From Ectocarpus siliculosus (taxonomy: Eukaryota; Sar; Phaeophyceae; Ectocarpales; Ectocarpaceae), in contig FN648564.1 of assembly GCA_000310025.1 (NCBI GenBank), positions 793,608-835,000 of the forward strand: DNA of 41,393 nucleotides. The letters are read 5' to 3'. The position numbers and the translations under genes are program-made. The notes beneath the pieces were generated by a model that was given only the letters and a program-made list of their open reading frames with translations, was not told the origin of the DNA and did not search any database. Shown piece after piece: positions 5,995 to 22,411 of the stretch. Within the stretch, counting starts at the first letter, position 1, and each line of letters opens with the position of its first letter.

Positions 5995-8900
5995 ATGGGG
6001 AACAAGCACGCCAAGAGGCGCAGCGGCAAGAGCAAGGTTGTAGCAGATAATCAGCGACCGCAGCAGCAGAAGCAAGTTCAGCAGCCACAACCCCTAAACG
6101 AACAGGATAAGGGACAGGCTAAGCCATCCACAGTACAGGAAAAACCTCACAAGGTGTGCACATAAGTTGAGCGCGTTCCGACAGAGAAGTATCTGAAGCC
6201 GTCGTTCATGATGCCGAGGCGAGGCGTCCAGCGGTAGACTATCGTCTCAAGGCACGCAAAGGTGTGGATCTCGCCGACTGTCATATGAGATACGCCCACA
6301 CGAAGTAGTCTGGTGGTCTTTGGTGCTTGCAAGGGTGTAAGCACGATATCTGGGGTCGATATTGTCTCGACAATGATTTATTTTGACTTTGTTTCAGAGC
6401 TGTCAGTCGAAGCCAGCCCTACGCCGGCAGAAGGCGATCGCCTCTGTTGTTCATGATAGAATAAGCTCGCCCTTCAACACTGCACCCCACCCCCTGCTCC
6501 ATTATGTTGGTGCTCGGTGGTACAGGAACTACATGGAGATACTGGGAGCCTCCCCGCTCCCACGGCCGGGGAAGTGGATGGCTGCTCGGCGACTACGGAG
6601 ACCGCAAGAAACGCCAGCGGTGGGCAACGTGTTCCAGACACCCAGTTGAATCCACCCCCCGCTGTCATCAATGAAGCTGCACGGCAGCCGCCTACTATGC
6701 GCGTTCCGACTACTGCTAGGAAGAGTGAAAACAGCAATGAGGCCCCGCCGCCGGTAAATGGGCTACCAACGGAGACTGAGGTACCGGTGGCCACGGGGGC
6801 GAGAAGCATCGATCAGCAGCCGATCACACGTGTGGCAGGAGGAGATGCAACCGATAGCAACTCGCCTAGCACCCATCAACCGCTGCAGTCACGACAGCAA
6901 CACCAACATCAGCAGCACAACGAACCAAAACAAGCCACTTCTGAATCAAACGCTGCAGAAGGCGATGTCAGCAACAACAGTGGCGGACCATCCGGTGCAG
7001 CGTTCGCTGCAACTGCCACGGATGGCTACGTATCGTTTTCCGAGTCTGAGGAATCCGCAAACCTTTCCATTCCTGCTTTCACCACGCTTCCCGAACAGCA
7101 ACGCTCCTCGCGAAGCAACACCTCCCATGAACACGGCAATCGGGGCGTTGTCGCCGATGGGCAAGCAGAGCGGCGGCCATCGGATGAACAAGCCAATGTT
7201 CTTCCCGGCGGTGAAGGTGGTAACAGCAGCAGTGACGACAAATGGGACTTTGGTGAGGACAGCGAGGATGAACCAGAGGCTGATGGTATGGAGGTGGCTG
7301 CAGGCGACGGGAGGGATGGGAGCCGACATAGTGGCCGCAATGCACACCACGAGCCGCAGCAACACCACCACCCAGCGGCTACACCCGTGTCGGCCGTTAG
7401 CGGCCATAATGACGGCAGAAACGATAGTAACGCGGAGGAGAAACAACAGGTCAAAGTGGTTGTCGACAGACTAGGTCGGCGGCAGAACGTCCCCGCGCGG
7501 TAAGTGAAAACTTTCCAAATGTGTGCGTAGACGATGCACGTGCATGTATGTCCATATGGAGAGCGAACAACAGATAGGTCGGGGCCGGCTAGGGAGATAT
7601 GCCTCGCCGCCCTCCGGCACCATGGAGGCGTTCCTTCTCCTAGTCCGTTTAAAGTAGTCAATCGGTTATTGAGAAATATCCTTATATACCAGCAGTACTA
7701 TTTAGTGCTCTCATCTGCATATGCTGATATTGACCATATTACTCTTTTCTAACTCTTTGTGGCGCGGGTATTGCCGACGTTTCCAGAGATCTGTCCTCTT
7801 CATCGTCTGAAGATGAGTTTGACGGCTGGGGTGACGACGACGACAACGATGAAGACGGAGACGAAGAAGAAGGTGAAGACGACACCGACGAGGATATTGA
7901 CGGCAACGTGTACGATTGGACCGTCATGGACACAGGAGGTGAGAGAGAGGACAGAAGCGGACGTGACGGGGAGGGTCACAGCCGAATATCGACATGTAGA
8001 TGGCGAAGGGCAGAGAGGAAATCTACATAAGACTCGACTAGAGAGGGGGAAAGCGCGAGAGATTGGGAACCAGAGGAGAGGCGTAAAGAGCCAGTCAGGA
8101 AGGGCGCTCTAGCACACAATGATTTTAGAGCACCAAACGCCCTCCATCTTACCTAAATGAGACACCGTGTCGATAAGTGTGGCCTGACCATGGAAGCCCC
8201 ACCTCCGTGCAAAATCCTACGTTGTTTGAAGACGGGTCTCTGGACGGTGAGATTGGGGAAATGGACGATCCGCGGAAACCTTCCGACGGATCGGTGGGCG
8301 ACGGCAGCAAGCCAGCATCGTCCACAGCCAAACCGAGGGCGGAGGCAAACCCCTTAGCGAGTAAGCTCGGGCTCGGCGCTAGTGTGCCTCGTGTCGCCAT
8401 GCCTCCGGCGATGACAGCAGCAGCGGCGCACATTCCGCTGCAGCAGGGGCCCGGGCGGGGGCAAGGGCCTGGGCGGGGACAGGGGCGGGGCCCCCATCGA
8501 GGACGAGGGTACAAGACCGTTGCCCCCGGGAGGGGGGGACGACCGCGGTACTCGCCGTTGATGCAGGCAAGCCATCACCGACAACTGTATTGGGAGATTC
8601 CCAACCAAAAACACACCACGTGCGGTTTGTTCGAGTTTTGATCCGCGGAGAACTGTGTTTGTATTTGTAGGAACGAGCTCAGGGCATATGTTGATTGGGT
8701 TGTATCAGCTGTGACGCCGCACACCTCAGTTGGTCTCCGGGACTGACGCCAGTCCCCTATCGTGGGAACGCGTGCCCTCTGACTTGTTTTGAGCCGTAGT
8801 ACTGGTGCGTCTCGTTCATCGTCACGCCATCACCCTCTTCATTTGTTTTTCGGGCACACATCTGAGTGATGTCGCGTGAAAAAAACACTCGTCTTCTTTA

Positions 8901-10220
8901 ATCAGGGCCGACCCCAACACTTCCGCCCGCAAGGATACGCGCCTGCACACCCAAACAAGAGGACGAGCGTAATGCCCGCCCGTGGCAACAGCAACAACAG
9001 CAACAGCCATAGTAACATCGGAGGCGGCGGGCCTGCTGCAGCTGGACTAGTTTCTAAACCTCCTGGAACCGCACCATCTTCTTCGCAGATGGCAGCAGCT
9101 GTCACCAACAACCATCCCAGGCCAGGGCCATCGGCACCCAATGGTGGGAGGGTAGGACCGGGAGCCGGCAGCACGCCTACCGGAACCAGAAACCCCGACA
9201 GTGGCGCGGGAGCACCACCGGGCGCCGGCGCCGTAGCTACGACCCAAGTAGCCACCACCGCAACCACCACCGCCGCTCCGTCTTCGCCCATGATTCCTCG
9301 CGGGGTACGTCACGACATGTCAGGAGGAGGGGCAGGGGCAGGCCGAGGAAGAGGAGGAGACTTTGTCAGGTCATCGTCCGGGATTGCTGGGGGTGAAAGG
9401 GGAGACTACCCCACATCGGCGGCCGCGGCGGGCTACTCAGGAGTTAGACCGGTGACGGCGGCGGCGGCTGCTTCGGCCTCGGCGACGACGGCGTCCGAAG
9501 GTGCATGACTTTGCCGCTCGCACGTAGTGTTTGGGGGTGCGGTTGCGAGTTGTGATGATGTCCTGCACTAGTCTCGAGGGTGCCTGGGGAGGAATGGGGG
9601 TGGGCCTCTCCGTTACGGAACCGGCCTCCTTTAGGTCCAAGTCGTATTCGACCAATCTGATTGCATGTGGTGCTCCTGCAACGCATGGCAGTCTCAACTC
9701 CTCCTACCGACAAGGTCCTCTAGGAAACCTCGACGTCTAAAACAACGTCGAATCAGTTTCCTCGAAGGGCTTAGTCTAACTTTTCTAGGTTCACGGGAGT
9801 TCTCGTACATCCTTCTCTCGAGTGCCCGCGTTGACGCCGAAGGACGACATCGACTCTCGATGGGCACCACACGTGCCCCATGGTTGCGCGGCTCTTTCTG
9901 TCAGCCAGTCAGCGGGTGCAAATAACCCACCACCCTTCTCTCGGCTCAGTCCCCGTACCCTCGTCTCTCGTGTGCTGGCAGGCACTATAGCGAAGGCCGC
10001 CGGGGGATCGGCGAGGCCGGCAAGCGGCAGCCCTGGCGCCTCTACGGCCGGTGCGAACAGGTCGACCCGCAGCGGAGCAGCATCGAGGTCCGGAGAGATG
10101 GCCGCGTCGGTGCCGGCGACGGCGGTGCCTGGGGCTGGGGCGGCGGCTCCCACGGCGTTGCCGAAGGAGAAGGAGGTAAAGTCCTCCACAAGACCTGTGC
10201 TACTCCCCGCTGAGGATTAA
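5995..10220 (+). CDS. Low-complexity acidic and RG-rich protein with possible N-myristoylation start (about 817 aa)
   Basis: Exons: 5995-6153, 6526-7499, 7787-7938, 8232-8566 (or from 8178), 8906-9500 and 9982-10220. All junction phases agree. The start codon has an in-frame stop two codons upstream. The protein begins MGNKHAKRRSGKSK, a Gly2 with a basic patch that fits N-myristoylation. It continues with Gln/Asn/Ser-rich disordered sequence, an acidic block (SSSSSEDEFDGWGDDDDNDE), an RG/GR-rich segment (GPGRGQGPGRGQGRGPHRGR) and Ala/Gly/Pro-rich sequence. The last exon ends KSSTRPVLLPAED. No catalytic domain is visible. The RG-rich part hints at RNA or protein binding (inference). The intron at 8567-8905 appears to be of GC-AG type. 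A good alternative donor, GAG|GTAAAG at 10175/10176 in phase 0, could join this gene to the kinase exon at 10815, making it the N-terminal part of the kinase-PP2C protein. Confidence 0.6.
8567..8905 (+). other. Candidate GC-AG intron
   Basis: The frame upstream (ending ...RYSPLMQ) has no phase-compatible GT donor with a good context, but ATGCAG|GCAAGC at 8566/8567 matches the known GC-AG donor pattern. The acceptor is strong: a pyrimidine tract then TAATCAG before 8906. Joining them keeps phase 0 into a 595-nt open exon. Confidence 0.5.
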
Positions 10221-10419
10221 GAGCATCCACGTATGGTCCAGCATACAGACGCGTGGGATTGTTTTTATGTGTGAAACCATTTCCGGCTGCGGCAAGCAGG
10301 GCAGTCACTCTACTCCTATTTGCAGGAGGAGTGAACCGAATGTGTATGCCTGAGCAGCATTCGCGTCCTGCTGAGGAGACGAGGTTGGGTCGGCGTGGCC
10401 CGTAGACAGCATTCGGCAC

Positions 10420-11425
10420 ATGCATAGCCTTCGTGAGCAAATTGCGCCTCTCCGAAGGTTAAGCCTCCTGAATATTCGAGAGAGTTCAATCGCCGTGAGT
10501 ATTCGCGAAAAGACTAGTGGGTCGCAGCAGGTAGGCCGTAAACAAAGAATGAAGGGGTACGAGCTCGATTTTCCTCGCTGACGCTACCGCCATGTTCTGG
10601 TTCGGATAGCGTCGCGCGTGGCGCCCGGCAAACCAAGGCGTGCTCGCCCACGCAGGCCACAACGTTGACCACTAAATCAACACGTACGTGCGGCACATCG
10701 TCCCGCATCAATCCACATCTGCAAACCCCACGACTATTACATCGTACCCCCCAATACCGTGCGCGGGATGATTCCGGACATGGTTCTGTGTACGAACGGG
10801 TGCACGGGTAGTAGGCGGTGAAGGACACGGCCAACATCACCCGCAAGAAGGCGCAGCTCCCGCAGCAGGAGCAGTTGGAGCACCCCACGCCCGTGGGGGG
10901 CAGCTGGCTCAAGAACCGATACATCGTCAACAACTACATCCTTCTGGAGCCGCTGGGCACGGGCAGCTACGCCGAGGTGGGTGCAACGAGAGTGCTCTGC
11001 GAGAGCACGTGGCTGGTGGCGCAATCGTGCTACATGTATGTGCCTTCGGAGCAGTTTGTCGTAAAATGCTTTTGTTTTGGCGGGCCACGGACTCCTGTGC
11101 TTGATCGCGTGCAGGAACAAACACAAGCCTTTCACGGCATCCCCCTGAGGTAACATGTTGGTGTTGGGTATCGACCCTAGAGCTTTTTAGACGCTTGCGA
11201 GCATGTGTTCATCCGTTAACATGGTGTGTTTGAATCAAGGACACTGCACTGCTCTAGGCTCGTCTTCTACCGCCGGTGAGCGCAAGGTGGCATTCACGCA
11301 CCTTTCTCCGCTGTGATGTATTGGAGGGCCGTGTGTAGAAGGGAGAAGAAAGTCAACCCAGCCATCAAACTCACCCCACTGTCAGAACGTTTGCCCAGGG
11401 CACCGTCACGTCACGCTTATGCTAC

Positions 11426-11491
<66 letters not shown>

Positions 11492-14400
11492 GCCCAAAAA
11501 GAGAATCGAGGCCTGTACCACTCACTCCTTTCTTGCCCCGCTTCTCCTTTCCGCTTGTAAAGGTGCGACTAGCGAAAGAAAAGACGTCCAACACGCTGTA
11601 CGCCGTGAAGATCATGAACAAGGATTTCCTCAAGAAGAGACAGGTCAGAAGAACGACTGAGAAAATAATGAGAGTGAGAAAAATTGGTAGTGCGACGTAG
11701 TCACGTCAGCCAAGAACGTGACCATTCAAACCCGGCACTGTGCAGCCACGCTGCGCATGTGAACAATGCCAGTAGTATCACCGCCGACAAGGACAGCAAC
11801 AGTGGCATTAGCATCAGCAGCAGTTCCAACAGTATCAGCAACAGCAGCAAATAATATGCGATCATCCCGTGGCATCAACGCCAAACATGACCTCCTTCTT
11901 TCAGGTGGGCAAGGAAGAAACCTTCATGGACAGCATCAAGAGGGAGATCGCCATCATGAAGAAGGTCCACCACCCCAACGTCTTGCGGCTGTATGAGGTC
12001 ATGGACGACCCTAAGGTAACACGAACTTGACTGGGGATAAGACCAACGCGCATTTTTTTTGCAATATCTCAACAAGCGAAAGAAACGATTAAACGTACAG
12101 TCTATGGAGCGAAACGAGTGGATAGCGAACGGACCAAAATGATCGACGAAAAAAGTGCACGTGAGCACGGAAGACCGATGTATCTCATGAAACAAAGTAT
12201 CGATGAAATCGAGGAGCGTTTACAGGAAATGTTTAGTTTCACAGCAAGTCTTGGAGGTGTGAGTAGAGGGTAACTTCTGTTTACAACCCGGCCTAACCAG
12301 TGAACGCATATTTCTCGCTGCGTACTTGCCGTTCATCGCCGTGCTCGGTTACGGGGGCGTTTGTGCCCTTTGGGGCCTGCCCGTCCGTGAAAAAAGGTGA
12401 ACAAACTGTACCTGGTGCTCGAGTACTGCAAAAAGGGGGACCTCATGAACATCCTGAACGGCGACACGAGGACGGTTACTTGCGACCCAATGAACGATAC
12501 CGACGTGTGGTACATCATGCGACAGGTAGGAAACCACGCACCCCGCGCGCGCGCAGCGTCGATCGGCGGCGTATGAAGAATGCGCTGGTTTTCGCGCTCA
12601 CCAACACTCGTATGCGAAGACGTCACTGAACCACTGATAGATGAGAACACGCAAGCCCGCGTGTTCTGCCTTCCTTGCCAAATGTTGTACGAATTGCTCG
12701 CACACGCTCTTCTCTCCAAATCTCGGCCGTCTTTCGGTGCGCGTTTTCGTGCAAAAAAACGAAAAAAGCGTTTTCTGCATCTATTGCTCTTTTGTAACGG
12801 AGGCATGCTGCGTTACGTCTTTTCTCGTGTCCTTTTCTTGGCCTTTCTGTCCGTCCGTCCACCTTGCCTGTCCATCTGAACACGATTCTCTCATGACGAG
12901 TACGCTGTTCACATGTCGTTCGATCACACTTCGTGGAAAACCCAAAAAACAACCGCAGATTGTGCACGGACTCAGCTTTCTCCACCTGCAGAACATCGTC
13001 CATGGAGACATCAAGCCCCAGAACTTACTGGTAGGCCTTAGACCCCCCGTTTTCGGAGGCACGGATTGCGTTCATATGCGTTTCAGACTTGCGAAGTGTG
13101 TGCATTTAGCCCTCCCAACCGGCGTGGATATTTTCGGTCCTTGGAAAATTCCGTTCAATTTTTCGACATGAATAACTGATGCAACCAAAGTATAGCCTGA
13201 TGATACGCCAGGTGGATTAGATCACGCTTTTTCAACCCATCAAAGCAGCGTTGATGTGCTCGGTGTTGAACGTGAACGCCGCTCGTCTACATCCCAAACC
13301 TGTTTCTACTTGTTGTTGTTGTCTGCTGTTGTTGACGGTGATGCCGTCATTGTCGTTGTTGTCATAGTTCTGCTTTTGCTGGCTCTTCCAACGCTATGTC
13401 CGTTGTCAAGGCAGCTTCACTATTGATCAACGTGAGGGGTGCGTTTGTATAACAGGTTGGGTCGGACAACGTCGCCAAGATCGCCGATTTTGGCATCAGC
13501 AAGTTCGTGCAGGGATCCAACCAGCGGCTACAGGAGCAGGTGCAATGCGATTTTTTGTATCGGTCAGACGGCCCCGCAACGCGGGAGAAAGCGTGTTGTT
13601 GCTCACGAACTCTTAGCCGTTGTTGGGCCGGGGGAAGCTTGATGCAAGGGGTACACAACATCCACTCGCACGTTCAAGGCCTCACGCAGCAACGCGCTGT
13701 TGCACATGACGAGATTCTACGCAATCGACACGAACAATGCTGCAGCTACAAACTAACCGAAACCTAACGACTACGTACACGTGCAAGGCCGGGACGCCGA
13801 CGTTCATGTCCCCCGAGCTTTGCTGCGGGGAGGGATACTCTGGCCAGCTGGCCGACGTGTGGGCGCTGGGGGCGACCATGTACATGATCCGCTGCGGGAA
13901 GCCACCTTTCATGGCCAACCAGGTGTGTCTGTGTGTAGCGTGTTCCTGGAGCTGTTCGGAGGCAGTAGTCGCCGAGAATACGGCGGCCAACCAAAGCATC
14001 CCGTGTATCTGTGGGGGGAAGTGTCGCCGAATACATATCCTCTTTTCAAACATAACACACGGGCCGCTGATAAGTTGTAGTCCGTTCGTGTGAGGGACCA
14101 GCACGCTGGTGTACCCAGAGAGTTTCCTAGCGCGTTTATGTCAAGGTGTGTCTAATGCGGATGCAAGGAGAATAAAATGCTCCTTGTCCTGACCGACTCG
14201 CGGTGGAATTGTGTTTAGGTGATGGTGCTCTACGAAAAGATCCAGAACGACCCGCTGGACTTTCCTCCGGAGGTGAACATGTCGCCCGGCCTTCGGAGGC
14301 TGCTGAGGGCCATGATGGAGAAGGATCCGGCGAAACGGATCATCCTTGACCAGGTACGCATGCTCTGTATTTTATGTACAGTAGGCCCTGTGCATAGATG

Positions 14401-16335
14401 TGTTGTGGGTCTATGAGCAACATATAACCCGTAAGTCGAACGCATCACGAGCCACAAACTTACGGTTTCGTGTCTCCAATTGCCGTTTCATACAATCCAG
14501 GTGCTTGCAGATCGCTGGCTCCAGCAGGGAGACTACGGCCCCGTTCGCACCACCACGGCGGGCGGTGTCCGCACCAACGTCACCACCGGCACCGCCGCCG
14601 CCGCCCTCAATCCGTCCTCTCACGGCATGCCTCCTGCTGCTTCTCCCAACATCCCGGGAGGCGGCGATACCGGCGGCAACACAACCGGCATCCCTCGGAA
14701 TAGAAACAATATCAGCAGCAATGGCGGCCCCGCGAACGGAGGCGGCGGTGGGGCAGGCCTGGGCTTGCGACCCCCGCCCTCTCTGTCCTTCCTGCCCCTA
14801 ACCGAGCAGGGCTATCGGGCCATCAAGGTCAGCGACGACGAGGTACACAAAAGCATCAATCAGGGCATCACCACGGGCGGGAACTCTGGGCCTGGGTCTG
14901 CTGCCGGAGGTGGCTCGTCACCCGTCAAGCAGCAGAGGTATTTTGTTTTTTTTTTGGCGCGGAAATTTTCAAAGGAAGGATGACAGAGGCGTCGGCAGGG
15001 AGGGGGTGTCGGAGGCAAGCACAACTCGGTAGTTTGTGTTTCTGATCGTGGATTTGGTCCACGTCTGTGAGAGTATTCTCGCCGCACCTCATCGAACGAC
15101 GGCAGGGATTGAGCTGAAGCCAAGTGACCAATAGCACGAGACCGGTAGGTTGGAGCAGCTAGACAAGTCTTTGAGGGGCAGGAGTCTAAATCGATAGGAT
15201 TCGTGGATCATTTCGTGTACGCCCAGCATGGCGTTCTTTGTCGGTTGCCGTCTGTTTTGTTCCATCATTTGCCGTCATTCGCACATAGGCCGCCCTCCGT
15301 ACAACATAAGACGCTAGTTTTACGTCGCTATGGTTCGGGGCTCATTCTGTCAGGAGTACTGACCCCCTAACGACTTTTTTTGCAGCATCATTCTCATGTC
15401 GGGCGATGATGTCTGGTCGTATGTCGCAGAGGTACAACTGCCGCAAACTCTTCGACGCCGCCCATTTTGGAGGAGTCGGCAGCGACGTCAACGACAACCT
15501 CGCCTGCTCTAGCCGGTGGAAGCGAGGGGAACTCCCCTGCTCCGGCCATCTCACCCTCAGGAGGAGCTGGGATTGGAGGAGAACGCCGTGGAGAAGGGGG
15601 TGGAGGCAGAAACAGCGGCGGTAGCAGCGGCAACAGCAGCAGCAGGGGGCACCTCAGCGAGACTGAAGAGGTGGGTGGGTATAGACAACACGGCGGTGTT
15701 CACGTGCCCCCCCGTCCCTCTTCATGGTCGTACGGTTTCTTTCCTCGCCCTTCGCCTCGTTGATAACCGTCTCTCGACTAGAGTATGGTCGATAAAGTCC
15801 TGTGCTCGAAGAGACCACGGAAACGTTCTCCAGTCCAGAAAAGTGTTTCCCTCTCTCGTCCAGAACCGCTGGACCATGCGATGATGTTTGAACAGCCGGT
15901 TCTTCCAAGTGGAAAACCGGTACAGGCGTGCGTATCGAGGTTCGACCCTTACCCTCAGGAGAAACCAAGCAGAGATGAAACCCCAATCTAAGCTGTGACG
16001 AGCTGTTTCGTCGACACCATGTGCTGGGACTTTGCCAGGAAACCCTTGGCGCAAGCCTAGCCTTTAGTTCGGAGACCCTACTGTCTGCAGCTCCGGTCGG
16101 CCCGTCCGGCCGCCCGCCCTCTCCAAAATACATTTTCATGCTGGTGTTTGTGGAAGCGTTTTAAGCCAATCCAGGGATACCCTGGTCTCCCGGCTAAACG
16201 GTTCATGAATGGCAGGGGTCCCCCCTTTCGTTTCAATGGAAGATTTCTCTCACCCCGGACGAGCCACCGCCGCGCGACATTCAGTCTTGACTGTCTTTAC
16301 CGCGCCAGTCATGACACCATTCCAGGCTCCATCTC

Positions 16336-16384
<49 letters not shown>

Positions 16385-16925
16385 GTCTCTGTCTCTCTGT
16401 GTCTCTCTCCGCGTATCTCTCTTTCTCTCTCGAAACCTTTGCGCACACTGTTGCCTCGGGCCAGTCCTGGAAGTTCCGCTCGTTCAAGAAGAAAATAGAA
16501 GAAAACGCCTCCGATCCCAAGTTTCGGGGAGCGGCCATCGCTTCGCCCGCTGGCGAGGCTCGGCCGCGGCAGCCCCCCGCCGCTCAGAACGGTAAGGCGT
16601 GCGCGTGCGTGTGTGCTTCGGTTTCGCCTGGCTCTGATGGGGATGGGCGCGGATGAGCGCGTTGTTTGTGTATGCTTGTATACGCCGTTGCCGGCAGCAC
16701 GAGCACGCAGTGTATTTTCTCCGTTTGTTGTTCTTTGTGGTTTCAATCAGCACGAAGAGAGAATCGATTCCGCAACGACACAACGAATGATCAACAAATG
16801 GAAACACATGGATGGAATGTCACGTGGAGGGCTGTAGGCCTATTAGAGGCACGTGAACATCCTGTAAGATATTTCTCGTCTTGTGAGGGATGCAATCATA
16901 GAAACGATGATCGAGAGAACGCCGA

Positions 16926-17008
<83 letters not shown>

Positions 17009-20000
17009 AGGGAGAGAGAGTGCCAGTGCCGCCATTAGAAAATCGAAATACTGGCATCTACGACTGCCAATCGGCAAAAGGCTTTCAGAAAAAATGCACG
17101 TGCTGGTCGCCCTCCGTACTCTGTAGTACGTACGTCGATCGTCTTTCGTCTCTCCTATTTTTCGTTGTCCGGTCCGGCATCGACATTGGCATCGGTAACG
17201 CCCGTTACCCACTGGCTCTGTTTGAGGCTCAGTACCACCACAGACGTTAAGGTGATCGCAGAAGCGATTTGGACGAATACCCCCCCCGCAAAAAAAATCA
17301 CGGTCGAGATTGTAGCTTGTACTACCTGGCACGATTCCGTATTCTGGTGAGAGAATTGCCGTCTTGATCCCTCCGCCTACTGCCCCGTCTCTTTTTCCAC
17401 GCGCCTTACACTCATTTTTCTCCCCTATTCCCCTCTGACGCCTCCGACTGTTCCTGCATCCCCTGGACAATAACATACACCAACGATGGGCACCTGTCGT
17501 GGCTTAAGGCTCAGCCGGAAGGCCGCCAAACCCCACCACAGAAAAACCCTACCTCTCCTCGACGACGAACACTCCCAAGGCAGCCACAGCAACGGGCGCG
17601 ACACCGTCGCCGCCCTCGTCCTTGCCCCCGCGCTCGGCAGCGGCGTCGCAGCAGCACCAACCACACAAGCAACAGCAACACGCGCGCGGCCAAGAAGTAA
17701 CGGCGCCGGCGCCCTCCGGGGACTCGTTTTTCGACAACACCGACGAAGACGACGACGACGACAGCGACGACTTCTCGTCGGAAGACAACCCGGACACCCT
17801 CTACGATGGCAGCGGCACCGTGTCCGCGGCATCCTCCCGGTCGGCGACGGCCATGTCCCCATCGTCCGGTTCGCGGGCGACGAGCTCGGCGGCGGAAGCC
17901 GGGCGTGGAGAGCCGAGGCCGTCGGTCGGACAGCACAGGGGCGGCGGCAGCAGCAGCAGCGCGCGGGGTCGCGGCAGGGGTGGGGGGGTGGGGGTGCGGG
18001 GCGGTGGCCCGATGCTTCAGCATCAGGCAGGCGGGAGGCGTCCTAGCGCGAAGAGGCGGAGCAGCGAGAAGTTCGACGCAGTGATGGACACGCTCGCGGC
18101 GCAGGTGATTTCTCTAATTTTTTGGTGTTGTCGTTGGTGATGGCCATAGTGATCTCGGTCTGCCGTCGGAAGCTGCAGCTAGCACGTGGTCCCAACTCGG
18201 GCGCATCAACACCCTGCGTACGCGAGAGCAAAACCATGTACTGTACGACAACGCAACGCATCCAAGAAGGTAGACGATCGTATATGGCAGCGGAGTCGAC
18301 GCCAACGACTTGGTGGGTGTGTGTGGCGCCGAATGACGTTGCAATGGGGGGCGGGGCGTGTGTGAGAAGAGGCGACAAGGGACGGCATACGTTGGCGTTG
18401 ATATTTAGTGCGAACAGCCCAATTTGCTTATTGAAAAAATCGGTATCGTGCTACAACTCGGAAGTTAATAAGTACCTGAAATAAACACAGCACGTGAGAA
18501 ACACCGGTGATCAAGCAATGGCCAAAACGACTACATGCAGGGGGGCGTACTCTTATGTTTTGCATGCCTTACCGGTTAGACCATTGGCCACGCGTCCTCG
18601 AGAGGCAGGGTGGGGCTACAGTATCCCTTCTATGCTTACAAGGGGTAGTGTTGTGCCACTCGTCTCTGTTTTGGTTTAACCACGCTCTAAGCTACCTAAT
18701 CTTTCAGCCGCGTTCTCCTTCCTTGACACGCCGGCCGGCCTATGATCGTCCACCTCCACAATTCGTGGGCAGCCGCCGTACAGAGGGGACCGCGGCGTTG
18801 GCGCCGCATCAAGACACGCAGGGCCGGGCGGCACCGGCACCGGCAGCGGCGGCGGCGGCGACGGCGACGACCGGTCACGCACTACAAGTACTTCCGGCAG
18901 CGTCCGCCCTTTGAGAGACTTGAGCCTGCGCGGCGTGAAGGTGCGGTCTTCTGCCAGGGGGCCCGCCGCGACTGGTTCGCCGCCGCCGTCCCAGGCGCCG
19001 GGGGAGAGCCGCTGCAATCCGCGACTTGGCCTAGTGGCGGCGGTCTCGCAGCGGCAGGGGAAGCGGGCGAGCCAGGAGGACAGGGCAACGGTGGCGGCGG
19101 ACCTCGCGACGGCCGTCGCCGGGAAGGTGAGTTGACCAAAACCACTCGCGGCCGTGACGAGAAATATGCCGGCGTGAGACAATAATTAGTTGAACTAGAC
19201 AGCCAAACGGTCGCCTCAAGCTGCACGACGACAGGACATTCAAAAATCATACGAAACCTGAGAGAATTCGTGGAAATGTTTAACGGTTGAATGTCCTTGT
19301 CGTGTTGTAGTCTGAGTGCGGAGCTCAACCCTCAGGCACCCCAACCTCTCCTAAGCGCTCCTCGACTCACCCGTTCGGGGATCGCGCATGGTTGTAATGT
19401 ACATGAAAGGTGTGCGCGCGCGTTCGGCGCCACCAAAAAAGGCCACCCCCCCGCGCCCCTCTAGACAAAAATTGTTGTTTTTCGCGTGCAATATATCCAT
19501 CACCACGAACAAGGTGGACAGGGAGTACCTGTATCAACACTTCGGTCTTTTCGGAGTTTTCGATGGCCACAACGGACAGATGTCCTCGGAAGCGCTCCGC
19601 GCCGGCCTGCACGTTGCCGTGGCCAAGCAACCAACCTTTCACCAGGCCCCCGACAAGGTTTGTAGGCCACGCGCAAGGTTTCTTCTAACGGAAAGGGTGG
19701 AGTGGGACGGGGAGCGGCGTAGTTGTCAGAAAGGAACCCTTGCATCTGCTAAAGATTGGTTTCGGCGAACGGTTCGAAACGGCAGGCAGTGACGGGTTCC
19801 TTTCCATGCAACGCAACGTGCGATGGTCGTGGAGGTGCGCATGCCTCCGTAGGACGTGGTAGACCGAAGGACGATCTCCCTCTGTTGGATGCGGCTATGG
19901 TTTCACCGTGCGCGTCGACGTCTTGGTAGCCATTTGCAGTATCGGTGTCTGGAGCCTGTTCTCGTCTCACTTCAAACCGTTTTTTTCACGCTGCTATGGC

Positions 20001-22411
20001 AGTAAAGGCTGGTGGTCGCGATACTGCCCCCATCCGCGCGGCCGTTATGCCGGAATGTGCTGACGGACGTTTTTAACAACCTCATTGTTTTACAACAGGC
20101 CGTGGTGCAGGCCTTCAACTGCTTCGACAAGGATCTTTGTGCGCGCCAGGAAAAGGTACGTATGTTACGTGTTATGCGTCGGTGACGGGGTGCGTGTTTC
20201 TTCCAGCAGCGTTGGCCGCCTTGGCCGATTGATCAGTTTTACAGGGCTTGTAGTCTTGACGTGTTCGCCTCTGTGTGCAGAGGTGAGTCTGTCCACTGGC
20301 TGACAGATTCGAGAACGTCTGCCACCGGGACGAAAGTCATCGTCCCGAGGAGAAGTCGAAGCTTGGAAGTGTGTGTGTGTTTTTACAACCAACATGAGTT
20401 TTGACAACCATTCACTCCATCCCAAAAACAAATCGCGTTTGTTTCTCAATGGATAGCCAGCCCCCGTTAGTTGTACCAGGACAGCCGAACGTCTCCACAT
20501 CAACTCTGAAAAAGACCACCGACGGCGAAACGGTCGGTATTGCAGGAAGGCGACACGAGCGGGTCGACGGCCCTGGTAGTCGTGTTCGACGGGCGTTCTC
20601 GCTCTATTCTCGTAGCCAACGTCGGGGACTCGCGGTGCGTCGCCAGCTGCGGGGGCGGGGTGGCGGCGCGGCTCTCGAGCGACCACCGCCTGAGCCGCCC
20701 GGACGAGAGGGCACGAGTAGTGGTGAGTGGGGACGAGCCTACGCAACGCGAGGCCGAGAGCTCTCCAAACGGGAACCCCTCCACCCTCGTCGGTCAAACA
20801 AGAAAAAATCGTTTTTGGATGGCTTCTCTCCGTCAGATGCGCAAGAGGAACTTAGAGGGTATCCAACACCCCCCGCGTAGGTTCACCAAGTTGCTCCGTG
20901 GTTATGACCCGGGGTGCACAAAAACGGTGGACTTGCATGCAGGCGGCGCCGTTTCCCTGGAAGCTAACGACAGCTGTCGCGGTCGTCGTAGTAGTATATA
21001 GTAGTATATAGTAGTATTAGTAGTAGTAGGAGTCGTCGTAGTTGCATTAGCGGTGCTTGTTGAGGCAGGCGGTTCTGTCGCAAAAATCGAGATGTTGCGC
21101 TCTTGAATCATCACTCACCAAGCGGGTGAATAACAAAATTCCTGGCTGTGACGCTGTGCACCGGCTCCCTCCCTCGGATCCTAGGCCAGCGGAGGTTTCG
21201 TCACGAACGACCGCATCAACGGGGTGTTGGCCGTTTCGAGGTCGTTTGGCGATGTGCAGCACAAGGTAAGCCTCGAGACGACATGGCCCGAACACTTACC
21301 AGCGGGGTTCGAAGGGCGATGAGGCGGTGTTTGTGAACGCGGACAGCTACGTTCACCGCATTTAGGAAAGCCATGCGAGGAATCTCGCAAAACCTTCCAT
21401 TCACGCGTAAGTCTCCCTTTCAACCGCAGCCGGACCGCTGGCGTCCATCCTTGCACACTCCTGCCAACAAACGTTTTGAAAATCTGATTTCATGTTCACA
21501 CGGCGGTACCTACTCTGTGGTGGGCAACACGTTTTGACGTCGACCTACGCATATCGCAGGGTACCTTCATTCCAAGCTGTGCACGTCGTACAGCCAAAAA
21601 AAATGTATTTTTCGTTGTAGTGGAGATGATGCTGTGCCTTTCGTTGGTGTTGCTTGCTTGTACGTCAACCTCGGTACACGAAGCCATAACCAGAAGATTC
21701 CTTCGGTTGTGTCTTCTGAGAGTTGAAAGCATTACATAGAGTAACGCAACGTTAACCGCGCACACGAACGTGCCCCACAGGAAGGGAAATCGCCAGGGTT
21801 GACCGCTACTCCCGAGCTGAGATCAGAACGCGTGGGTTCCTCCACCTTGCCATCCGGTGGCGGTGGCGGTGGCGGAGGCGGGTCGATGGAGTTCGTGATA
21901 CTCGCCACCGACGGTCTGTGGGATGTCGTCGAAGATCAGGTAACTCAATGTTTTCGTGCTCGTCGTCCCTCAATACGCACACTTTCTTGGATGTGGCGGG
22001 AAAATTTAGGCGTGCGTTTAACTAGGGCTATATTTTGGGCTTAAATTTCCATCTAGAGACGTACCACATCCTGCAGTGCCTCAGGTACAACTGCCGCCGA
22101 ATTATTAAATATCGATTAACCCTTTTCTCGCCTAACAGGAGGCGGTGGACTTCGTTCGGTTGTACCTTTCCGAGAAAAACGGAGATCTGTCCGGAGCCGC
22201 GAGGGAGCTGACCAAGCTGGCGCTAGACCAAGGATCTGTGGACAACGTTAGCGTGGTGCTGGTGTGGTTCGAAGAGAACGGGGACGAAGGAGCACCACAA
22301 GAGCAGCAAGAAGAAAAGCACCAACACCAGCCACAGCGGCAGCGAAGTCATCATCAGCAGCAGCGGTCACATCAACGGCAGCATTCGAAACCGCACGAGG
22401 CACCAGACTGA
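10420..22411 (+). CDS. Fused CaMKK/GRIK-type protein kinase and PP2C phosphatase (about 1207 aa)
   Basis: Predicted exons: 10420-10494, 10815-10976, 11563-11643, 11905-12015, 12397-12525, 12959-13030, 13456-13539, 13788-13922, 14219-14353, 14501-14937, 15430-15670, 16465-16591, 17515-18104, 18773-19126, 19514-19657, 20099-20155, 20546-20722, 21185-21265, 21781-21939 and 22139-22411. They sum to 3624 nt with all phases agreeing. Residues about 26-345 form the kinase and about 346-830 a disordered linker with an acidic block ([18 protein letters not shown]) and a basic end ([13 protein letters not shown]). Residues about 840-1175 form the PP2C domain, followed by a Gln/His-rich tail. No stop is met between the domains, and the first PP2C exon has no ATG of its own before the domain, so two separate genes would need extra exons. 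The start at 10420 ([13 protein letters not shown]) is one option; splicing from the upstream gene at 10175 is another. Weakest joints: the first exon, and acceptors 15430 and 18773. Confidence 0.65.
10815..14560 (+). other. Protein kinase domain, CaMKK/GRIK class (within the fusion gene)
   Basis: Visible motifs in order: VKDT lead-in; Gly loop LGTGSYAEV; catalytic Lys in YAVKIMNK; alpha-C Glu in [19 protein letters not shown]; hinge [13 protein letters not shown]; catalytic loop [21 protein letters not shown]; activation segment [39 protein letters not shown]; and [19 protein letters not shown] with DPAKRI. The stretch from the activation segment ([10 protein letters not shown]) through [14 protein letters not shown] to the DFPPE helix is characteristic of CaMKK and plant GRIK/SnAK kinases, which phosphorylate the activation loop of AMPK/SnRK1-type kinases. 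The catalytic loop has HGD in place of HRD, as in plant GRIK. The Arg-Pro-rich insert of animal CaMKK is not seen. All residues needed for catalysis are present. Confidence 0.9.
11428..11488. repeat. (CT)n microsatellite in kinase intron
   Basis: About 30 uninterrupted CT units lie in the intron between the Gly-loop exon and the exon carrying the catalytic lysine, about 75 bp upstream of the acceptor at 11562. On the sense strand this is a pyrimidine tract, so its length could influence splice-site choice. Confidence 0.95.
16337..16382. repeat. (CTGT)n microsatellite in linker intron
   Basis: About eleven CTGT/GTCT tetranucleotide units, continuing into a degenerate CT-rich tract up to about 16435. 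It lies just upstream of the acceptor (CCAG) for the exon at 16465-16591. Confidence 0.9.
16924..17020. repeat. (GA)n microsatellite in linker intron
   Basis: A long run of GA dinucleotides ending in GGGA units, inside the intron between the exons at 16465-16591 and 17515-18104. It is complementary to the (CT)n tract at 11428-11488 of the same predicted pre-mRNA, so the two could pair. Confidence 0.95.
18773..22411 (+). other. PP2C (PPM) Ser/Thr phosphatase domain (within the fusion gene)
   Basis: The PPM family signatures occur in the right order: [19 protein letters not shown] (first motif with Arg and Glu-Asp); [12 protein letters not shown] (metal-binding Asp and Gly); [13 protein letters not shown] and [53 protein letters not shown] (metal-binding Asp); and [15 protein letters not shown] (Asp-Asn). 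All metal-coordinating and phosphate-binding positions I can recognise are kept, so an active Mn/Mg-dependent phosphatase is predicted. A Ser/Gly insert with nine Gly in a row sits just before the FVILATDG strand. The C-terminal tail is rich in Gln and His. Exons are all phase 0 and follow good acceptors. Confidence 0.92.
20985..21040. repeat. TAG-rich simple repeat in PP2C intron
   Basis: Imperfect GTAGTATATA and TAG trinucleotide units lie in the intron before the exon at 21185-21265. Confidence 0.7.

Follow-up and report, generated by a model that had tools for sequence, protein, structure and literature searches.

The window analyzed here is a 41,393-nucleotide stretch of Ectocarpus siliculosus DNA (assembly GCA_000310025.1, contig FN648564.1, positions 793,608 to 835,000 of the forward strand), in which positions 5995-22411 (+) are best explained as one gene predicted to encode one protein of about 1987 residues, with a CaMKK-type kinase followed by a PP2C phosphatase. 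A first-pass annotation of the window had proposed such a fusion from a chain of 20 exons (10420-22411), and these do chain in a single open frame (3630 nt; 1209 codons plus stop, the terminal stop being the only one). The full model was obtained by mapping the protein P0001 of E. fasciculatus (1931 aa) back onto the window with tblastn, followed by modelling, and comprises 25 exons, 1987 aa and one GC-AG intron. P0001 is 82.6% identical to it over its entire length (98.9% in the kinase domain, 94.8% in the PP2C domain). The features of the gene are as follows.

5995-6153 (+): exon 1, start MGNKHAKRR..., N-myristoylation consensus; from tblastn with P0001 and the model
6526-7499 (+): exon 2, low-complexity N-terminal region; from P0001 mapping and the model
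7787-7938 (+): exon 3, acidic stretch and the conserved VYDW motif (NVYDWTVMDT, residue 419)
8232-8566 (+): exon 4, low-complexity, G/R-rich, with a GC-AG donor at 8567; from the frame and the P0117 junction
8906-9500 (+): exon 5, low-complexity; from P0001 mapping and the model
9982-10175 (+): exon 6, low-complexity, ending LPKEKE; true 5' neighbour of the kinase exon, junction as in P0001 and P0117
10420-10494 (+): first exon of the first-pass annotation, excluded from the gene model
10815-10976 (+): exon 7, AVKDTAN..., start of the kinase domain, glycine-rich loop GTGSYAEV
11563-11643 (+): exon 8, kinase, VAIK-type lysine (YAVKIM)
11905-12015 (+): exon 9, kinase, helix C glutamate
12397-12525 (+): exon 10, kinase, hinge region
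12959-13030 (+): exon 11, kinase, catalytic loop HGDIKPQN (non-RD)
13456-13539 (+): exon 12, kinase, DFG
13788-13922 (+): exon 13, kinase, a motif of 10 residues
14219-14353 (+): exon 14, kinase C-lobe
14501-14937 (+): exon 15, end of the kinase; linker with a family motif of 12 residues
15430-15670 (+): exon 16, linker, low-complexity, ending SETEE
16465-16591 (+): exon 17, linker; a motif of 14 residues is completed here
17509-18104 (+): exon 18, linker, acidic stretch, with a characteristic end of 11 residues
18105-18772 (+): intron 18, 668 bp, phase 0, the doubted joint
18773-19126 (+): exon 19, PPYRG..., start of PP2C (a motif of 11 residues)
19514-19657 (+): exon 20, PP2C, DGHNG metal site
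20099-20155 (+): exon 21, PP2C
20546-20722 (+): exon 22, PP2C, SGSTA and VGDSR
21185-21265 (+): exon 23, PP2C (label of 13 letters)
21781-21939 (+): exon 24, PP2C (label of 10 letters), metal site
22139-22411 (+): exon 25, PP2C, SVDNVSVV metal site; Q/H-rich tail and stop

Mapping of P0001 located the six exons upstream of the kinase and reached an ATG at 5995, which replaces the start and first exon (10420-10494) given in the first-pass annotation. The latter exon has a six-residue word in common with 0 of 175 retrieved proteins and was dropped, its place being taken by exon 6. In P0001 and P0117, exon 6 feeds the kinase exon (...LPKEKE|[AV]VKDTAN); P0003 and P0004 have a different sequence at the 5' side of the kinase exon, which is likewise unlike 10420-10494. 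The GC-AG intron predicted at the donor of intron 4 is backed by the same junction in P0117.

The linker is joined to the PP2C domain across intron 18. As first described, exon 18 ends ...MDTLAAQ at a phase-0 donor and exon 19 opens in phase 0, with no ATG ahead of the PP2C domain; the frame 5' of 18773 is closed by a TGA at 18743. The joint is not a product of chance, because P0001 aligns end to end with the model and the models of Ectocarpus sp. 8 (P0002) and Scytosiphon (P0004) likewise cross it. Of 82 fused CaMKK-type proteins, 75 carry a junction motif between kinase and PP2C, in one of two forms (FDxVMDTLaxQP and similar in ochrophytes, LDELLLTTL in oomycetes); in the window it is split by intron 18. 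By homology, the locus does encode a single kinase and PP2C protein, the joint in E. siliculosus itself resting on the homologues.

Relatives were searched with residues 500-1209 of the 20-exon chain, which retrieved P0001 (100% of the query covered, 83% identity), a partial protein of Scytosiphon promiscuus, one EukProt protein and a fragment from Ectocarpus sp. 8. Starting from five distant relatives, a profile search gave 381 proteins (E<=1e-20), 120 of them listed. Both domains were present, among the named matches listed, in Triparma, Octactis, Pelagomonas and the diatom Leptocylindrus danicus, and in the oomycetes Phytophthora, Nothophytophthora, Pythium, Aphanomyces, Saprolegnia, Achlya and Thraustotheca. 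Several fused relatives come from transcript assemblies (P0054 and P0061, MMETSP; P0103, MMETSP0321, from L. danicus), and the possibility raised at the outset, that homologues are always two separate genes, is thereby contradicted. When 148 retrieved proteins and the window were scanned with kinase and PP2C profiles built for this analysis, both domains exceeded 100 bits in 101, and the kinase was CaMKK-type at above 300 bits in 82 of the 101, with the window counted in both figures; 27 proteins first listed in a later search stand outside these counts. Some of the matches listed were without PP2C, and those inspected end in the linker or at intron-like sequence. In its own genome, the window kinase matched 47 places, and no near copy of the gene was found among them (at most 49% identity outside the window).

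The two domains appear to share one history. A quick tree was made for each, with outgroups, from 47 of the 82 fused proteins; short or weak rows were omitted, as were 25 rows chosen by hand, mostly near-duplicates; support was assessed by the Shimodaira-Hasegawa-like approximate likelihood-ratio test (SH-aLRT) only, and several branches are long. Path lengths in the kinase tree and in the PP2C tree were correlated over the 47 rows (r 0.82) and within group A (r 0.685, 17 rows), group B (r 0.842, 16 rows) and the oomycetes (r 0.965, 14 rows), in each case with a value as high in 0 of 999 permutations. The same groups were obtained in both trees, i.e. brown algae, a Triparma, a Pelagomonas and an Octactis group, the second ochrophyte group B, and oomycetes, with the branching order among them mostly unresolved in both. 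Six proteins with cyclic-nucleotide-binding (cNMP), kinase and PP2C domains served as outgroup and were split from the 47 rows at SH-aLRT 100 in the kinase tree; the same six together with five further PP2C rows were split at SH-aLRT 93 in the PP2C tree. Because the domain trees are congruent, one ancient fusion is the simplest reading; most likely it took place before the split of oomycetes and photosynthetic stramenopiles and was inherited since, with later duplication.

The catalytic residues of the kinase (K, E, D and DFG) are all present in the window. Among the 82 fused proteins, the HGD and DFG aspartates are invariant (82/82), as is the VAIK lysine in the 78 with a letter there (78/78), and so are the tested G, T, P and E of a kinase motif of 10 residues. 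The HGD glycine is also invariant (82/82), and the kinases are therefore non-RD; kinases of this HGD form often need no activation-loop phosphorylation. The phosphatase is similarly well kept, with PF00481 above cut-off in P0001 and found also on the window exons, and with the ED pair (80/80), the DGH aspartate (81/81) and the DN aspartate (76/76) conserved among the 82. Thus, the first-pass statement that both domains keep their catalytic residues was borne out, with both domains complete in P0001 (Pfam). Both sites are probably used, given how long they have been retained, and both domains are apparently active.

The kinase class was assigned from solved structures; the trees hold no CaMKK or GRIK sequence, and the sequence comparison was with CaMKK rather than GRIK/SnAK proteins. 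The best matches of the window kinase in the PDB were CaMKK2 (205 bits) and CaMKK1 (192 bits), followed by MELK (156 bits), and a Foldseek search with the kinase half of the AlphaFold model of P0005 also gave CaMKK2/1; the phosphatase half gave PPM1B, TAP38 and ABI1-type phosphatases. The kinase differs from CaMKK1 and CaMKK2 in having HGD for HRD, in its fusion to PP2C, and in the segment after the N-lobe lysine, where 28 residues lie between the aligned pieces in CaMKK2 (2zv2) versus 11 in the window, i.e. about 17 fewer; the extra CaMKK2 segment is presumably the RP insert. Calmodulin regulation was examined with a stretch of the P. infestans relative, which was compared with PDB chains and gave no match to a CaMKK peptide, the 10 matches being to RecA and other unrelated proteins; the VSxDE motif in the linker may resemble CaMKK2. 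The designation 'CaMKK-type' stands for the catalytic domain, by which the protein is classed, and was not kept in the sense of calmodulin dependence, which is unsupported.

The N-terminus of the window protein fits the myristoylation consensus. Sixty fused proteins, that of the window among them, begin with M and extend for 150 residues or more ahead of the kinase. This consensus was present at the start of 40 of the 60, compared with 0 of 16 PP2C-only matches, and nine of the 40 begin with MGC..SK, which is a known signature of double acylation; the named ones among the nine are from Phytophthora. The protein is probably anchored to a membrane by acylation. A [YHN]DW motif precedes the kinase in 33 of the 60 (mean 0.7 and maximum 4 in 200 shuffles); it reads VYDW, or HDW in oomycetes, and sits in N-termini of otherwise low complexity. 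The linker is long, with many Ser/Thr residues and acidic stretches, and holds two further short motifs besides that at the junction (VSxDEI..SI and EE...R...F.KK), which makes three conserved ones. When P0005 was modelled with AlphaFold (60 alignment rows), the predicted local distance difference test score (pLDDT) was at least 90 in 430 of 839 residues, almost all of them in the two domains, and the linker was mostly of low confidence, so that it is most likely a flexible tether.

To our knowledge, kinases and their opposing phosphatases are nearly always separate proteins. Fusions of PP2C to other kinase types are known, as the first-pass annotation had noted. VTC3 of land plants and algae is described as uniting a Ser/Thr kinase with a PP2C (PMC12675267), and phosphatase-cNMP-kinase proteins are reported from plants and oomycetes (PMC3019232). 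The likeness to VTC3, compared by description only, lies in this domain content, and the difference in its reported place in the chloroplast and effect on ascorbate (PMC12675267); no VTC3 was recognizable by name among the 120 of 381 profile-search matches listed. The cNMP-kinase-PP2C proteins carry cyclic-nucleotide-binding domains and another kinase, two P. infestans members being reported as kinase-inactive (PMC3019232), whereas PF00027 was absent from the relatives P0001, P0003, P0005 and P0009 of the present family and present in P0017. For P. infestans, PP2C is tabulated in the kinome for four kinases, which belong to the AGC, CAMK and OTHER groups (PMC3019232), and five kinase-PPM proteins with single transcripts are reported for P. 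sojae, with a CAP domain accompanying the kinase (PMC10925823). The PP2C of the window shares PF00481 and the metal-site motifs with the PP2C/PPM phosphatases ABI1, PPM1A/B and TAP38, its closest solved relatives, and differs in its position C-terminal to a kinase.

Among the matches listed, oomycete members of the family are filed as 'CAMKK/CAMKK-META protein kinase' or 'GRIK2'; they share the kinase, the LDELLLTTL junction motif and PP2C with the family, several also the MGC..SK start, and the names cover the kinase only. The first-pass annotation knew of no described CaMKK-PP2C fusion, and no description of the family as such was recognizable by title or abstract in the open-licence literature (subscription papers lie mostly outside this scope); the fusion is nevertheless less new than had been assumed, given these CAMKK names of its oomycete members and the P. 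infestans kinome table. The window has the domain order of the stramenopile CaMKK-PP2C proteins, i.e. kinase, junction motif and PP2C in one frame.

CaMKK-beta and the SnAK/GRIK kinases are reported to phosphorylate the activation loop (T-loop) of AMPK/SnRK1, and PP2Cs to be able to dephosphorylate it, in animals and plants (PMC4033248). The protein combines one member of each of these classes, which suggests that it switches a shared client in both directions, and the first-pass idea of a switch that adds a phosphate to an AMPK/SnRK1-type kinase and takes it off again is plausible. The protein would sit on a membrane via its acylated N-terminus, where the kinase would write a phosphate on the activation loop of the client, most plausibly an AMPK/SnRK1-type kinase, and the PP2C would erase it from the same loop; signals on the linker or N-terminus might set the balance between the two. 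We infer from the above a single fusion event, acylation, both enzyme activities, a common substrate and an AMPK/SnRK1-type client. An ancient, lipid-anchored writer-and-eraser, plausibly acting on such an activation loop, is our best overall reading, for and against which we see about equal chances. It is a more tentative possibility that the stramenopiles joined both controls of the AMPK/SnRK1 activation loop in this one ancient, lipid-anchored protein, with kinase and phosphatase acting on the same residue and the linker deciding which prevails. In animals and plants, CaMKK/GRIK kinases and PP2Cs are among the classes that activate and inactivate the energy sensor AMPK/SnRK1, and the family is therefore a clear candidate for AMPK/SnRK1 control in brown algae, pelagophytes, bolidophytes, some diatoms and oomycetes. 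With its predicted lipid anchor, the proposal also gains a cellular location, and the retention of both active sites across a large eukaryotic group allows a direct test of the balance of writing and erasing in one polypeptide.

Several observations weigh against the writer-and-eraser. Although an AMPK beta C-terminal domain in the genome speaks for the reading, AMPK alpha was not found there by T-loop patterns or by its adenylate-sensor family, a family search that missed its controls as well. Leptocylindrus groups with Triparma in the kinase tree but forms a long branch of its own in that of PP2C. The junction motif is lacking in seven of the 82 fused proteins (five Pelagomonas-like proteins, P0104 and P0111), the acylation consensus in 20 of the 60 with a long N-terminus, and single deviations occur in the PP2C metal sites (DGLWD aspartate 75/76, DGH glycine 80/81, DGH histidine 80/81). 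In the P0005 model, most of the linker and the kinase part 261-277 had pLDDT below 50 and the predicted template modelling score (pTM) was 0.50; therefore, this model gives no packing that couples the domains. Kinase-only records also exist (e.g. P0125, P0127, P0128), and separate kinase-only isoforms are possible, though unproven. Three such records, P0127 and P0169 (oomycete) and P0128 (oomycete-like), end just after the acidic linker or the junction motif with sequence unlike that of their relatives and therefore look like models running into introns. PP2C halves may thus be missed in some annotations.

The kinase-only records would fit two adjacent genes, a kinase ending near 18104 and a PP2C starting near 18773, mis-joined by exon chaining, as would the size of intron 18, the stop soon met on reading past 18104, and a joint backed by homologues rather than RNA. 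We rejected this reading, which is hardly credible, on account of the joined relatives in several stramenopile groups, transcript assemblies included, and the conserved junction motif of 12 residues that spans intron 18; the PP2C without an in-frame ATG before it and the congruent trees also speak against it. Loss of catalysis in the kinase, the PP2C or both, leaving them as binding modules, is very unlikely too: decay has occurred in a related architecture, as in the two P. infestans phosphatase/cNMP-binding/kinase proteins reported with inactive kinases (PMC3019232), but the catalytic residues are intact in nearly all members of this family.

Other rivals accept the fusion and two active enzymes. 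The phosphatase may mainly act on the attached kinase, the linker or neighbouring copies, as a built-in brake or timer, and not on a client; the tether would favour such action in cis, the linker being long, with predicted flexibility and an abundance of Ser/Thr residues and acidic stretches, and Arabidopsis SnAK kinases are reported to autophosphorylate (PMC4033248). The uniform HGD (82/82), a form often free of the need for activation-loop phosphorylation, argues against this reading, which we consider rather unlikely. Alternatively, kinase and phosphatase may serve different clients and be joined only for common placement at the membrane, in line with the acylation consensus in 40 of 60 proteins, a P0005 model without confident contact between the domains, and distinct short motifs (YDW, VSxDE, EExxR, MDTL) that suggest several partners. 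A shared task fits better with the congruent trees and with catalytic residues retained together in both domains of nearly all 82 proteins, and separate clients are unlikely.

Besides the gene in the window, the E. siliculosus genome contains two loci, G000:C13:3009963-3022171 (-) and G000:C479:910839-938012 (-), in which cNMP-binding, kinase and PP2C pieces follow one another in that order on the same strand. Both are best matched by cNMP-kinase-PP2C proteins, and the species appears to have two kinds of kinase-PP2C proteins. A partial E. fasciculatus record (P0062, 857 aa) is a group-B CaMKK-PP2C protein filed under a brown alga. In the examined stretches of the window's genome it had no clear counterpart, the matches being short kinase pieces (at most 58% identity over 36 residues), cNMP-type loci and two unrelated kinases (28-35%), and it may be a paralogue or stem from a contaminant contig. 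Within the gene itself, repeat runs were found in intron 7 (CT, 11428-11487), intron 16 (CTGT-type, 16339-16382) and intron 17 (GA, 16930-17001).

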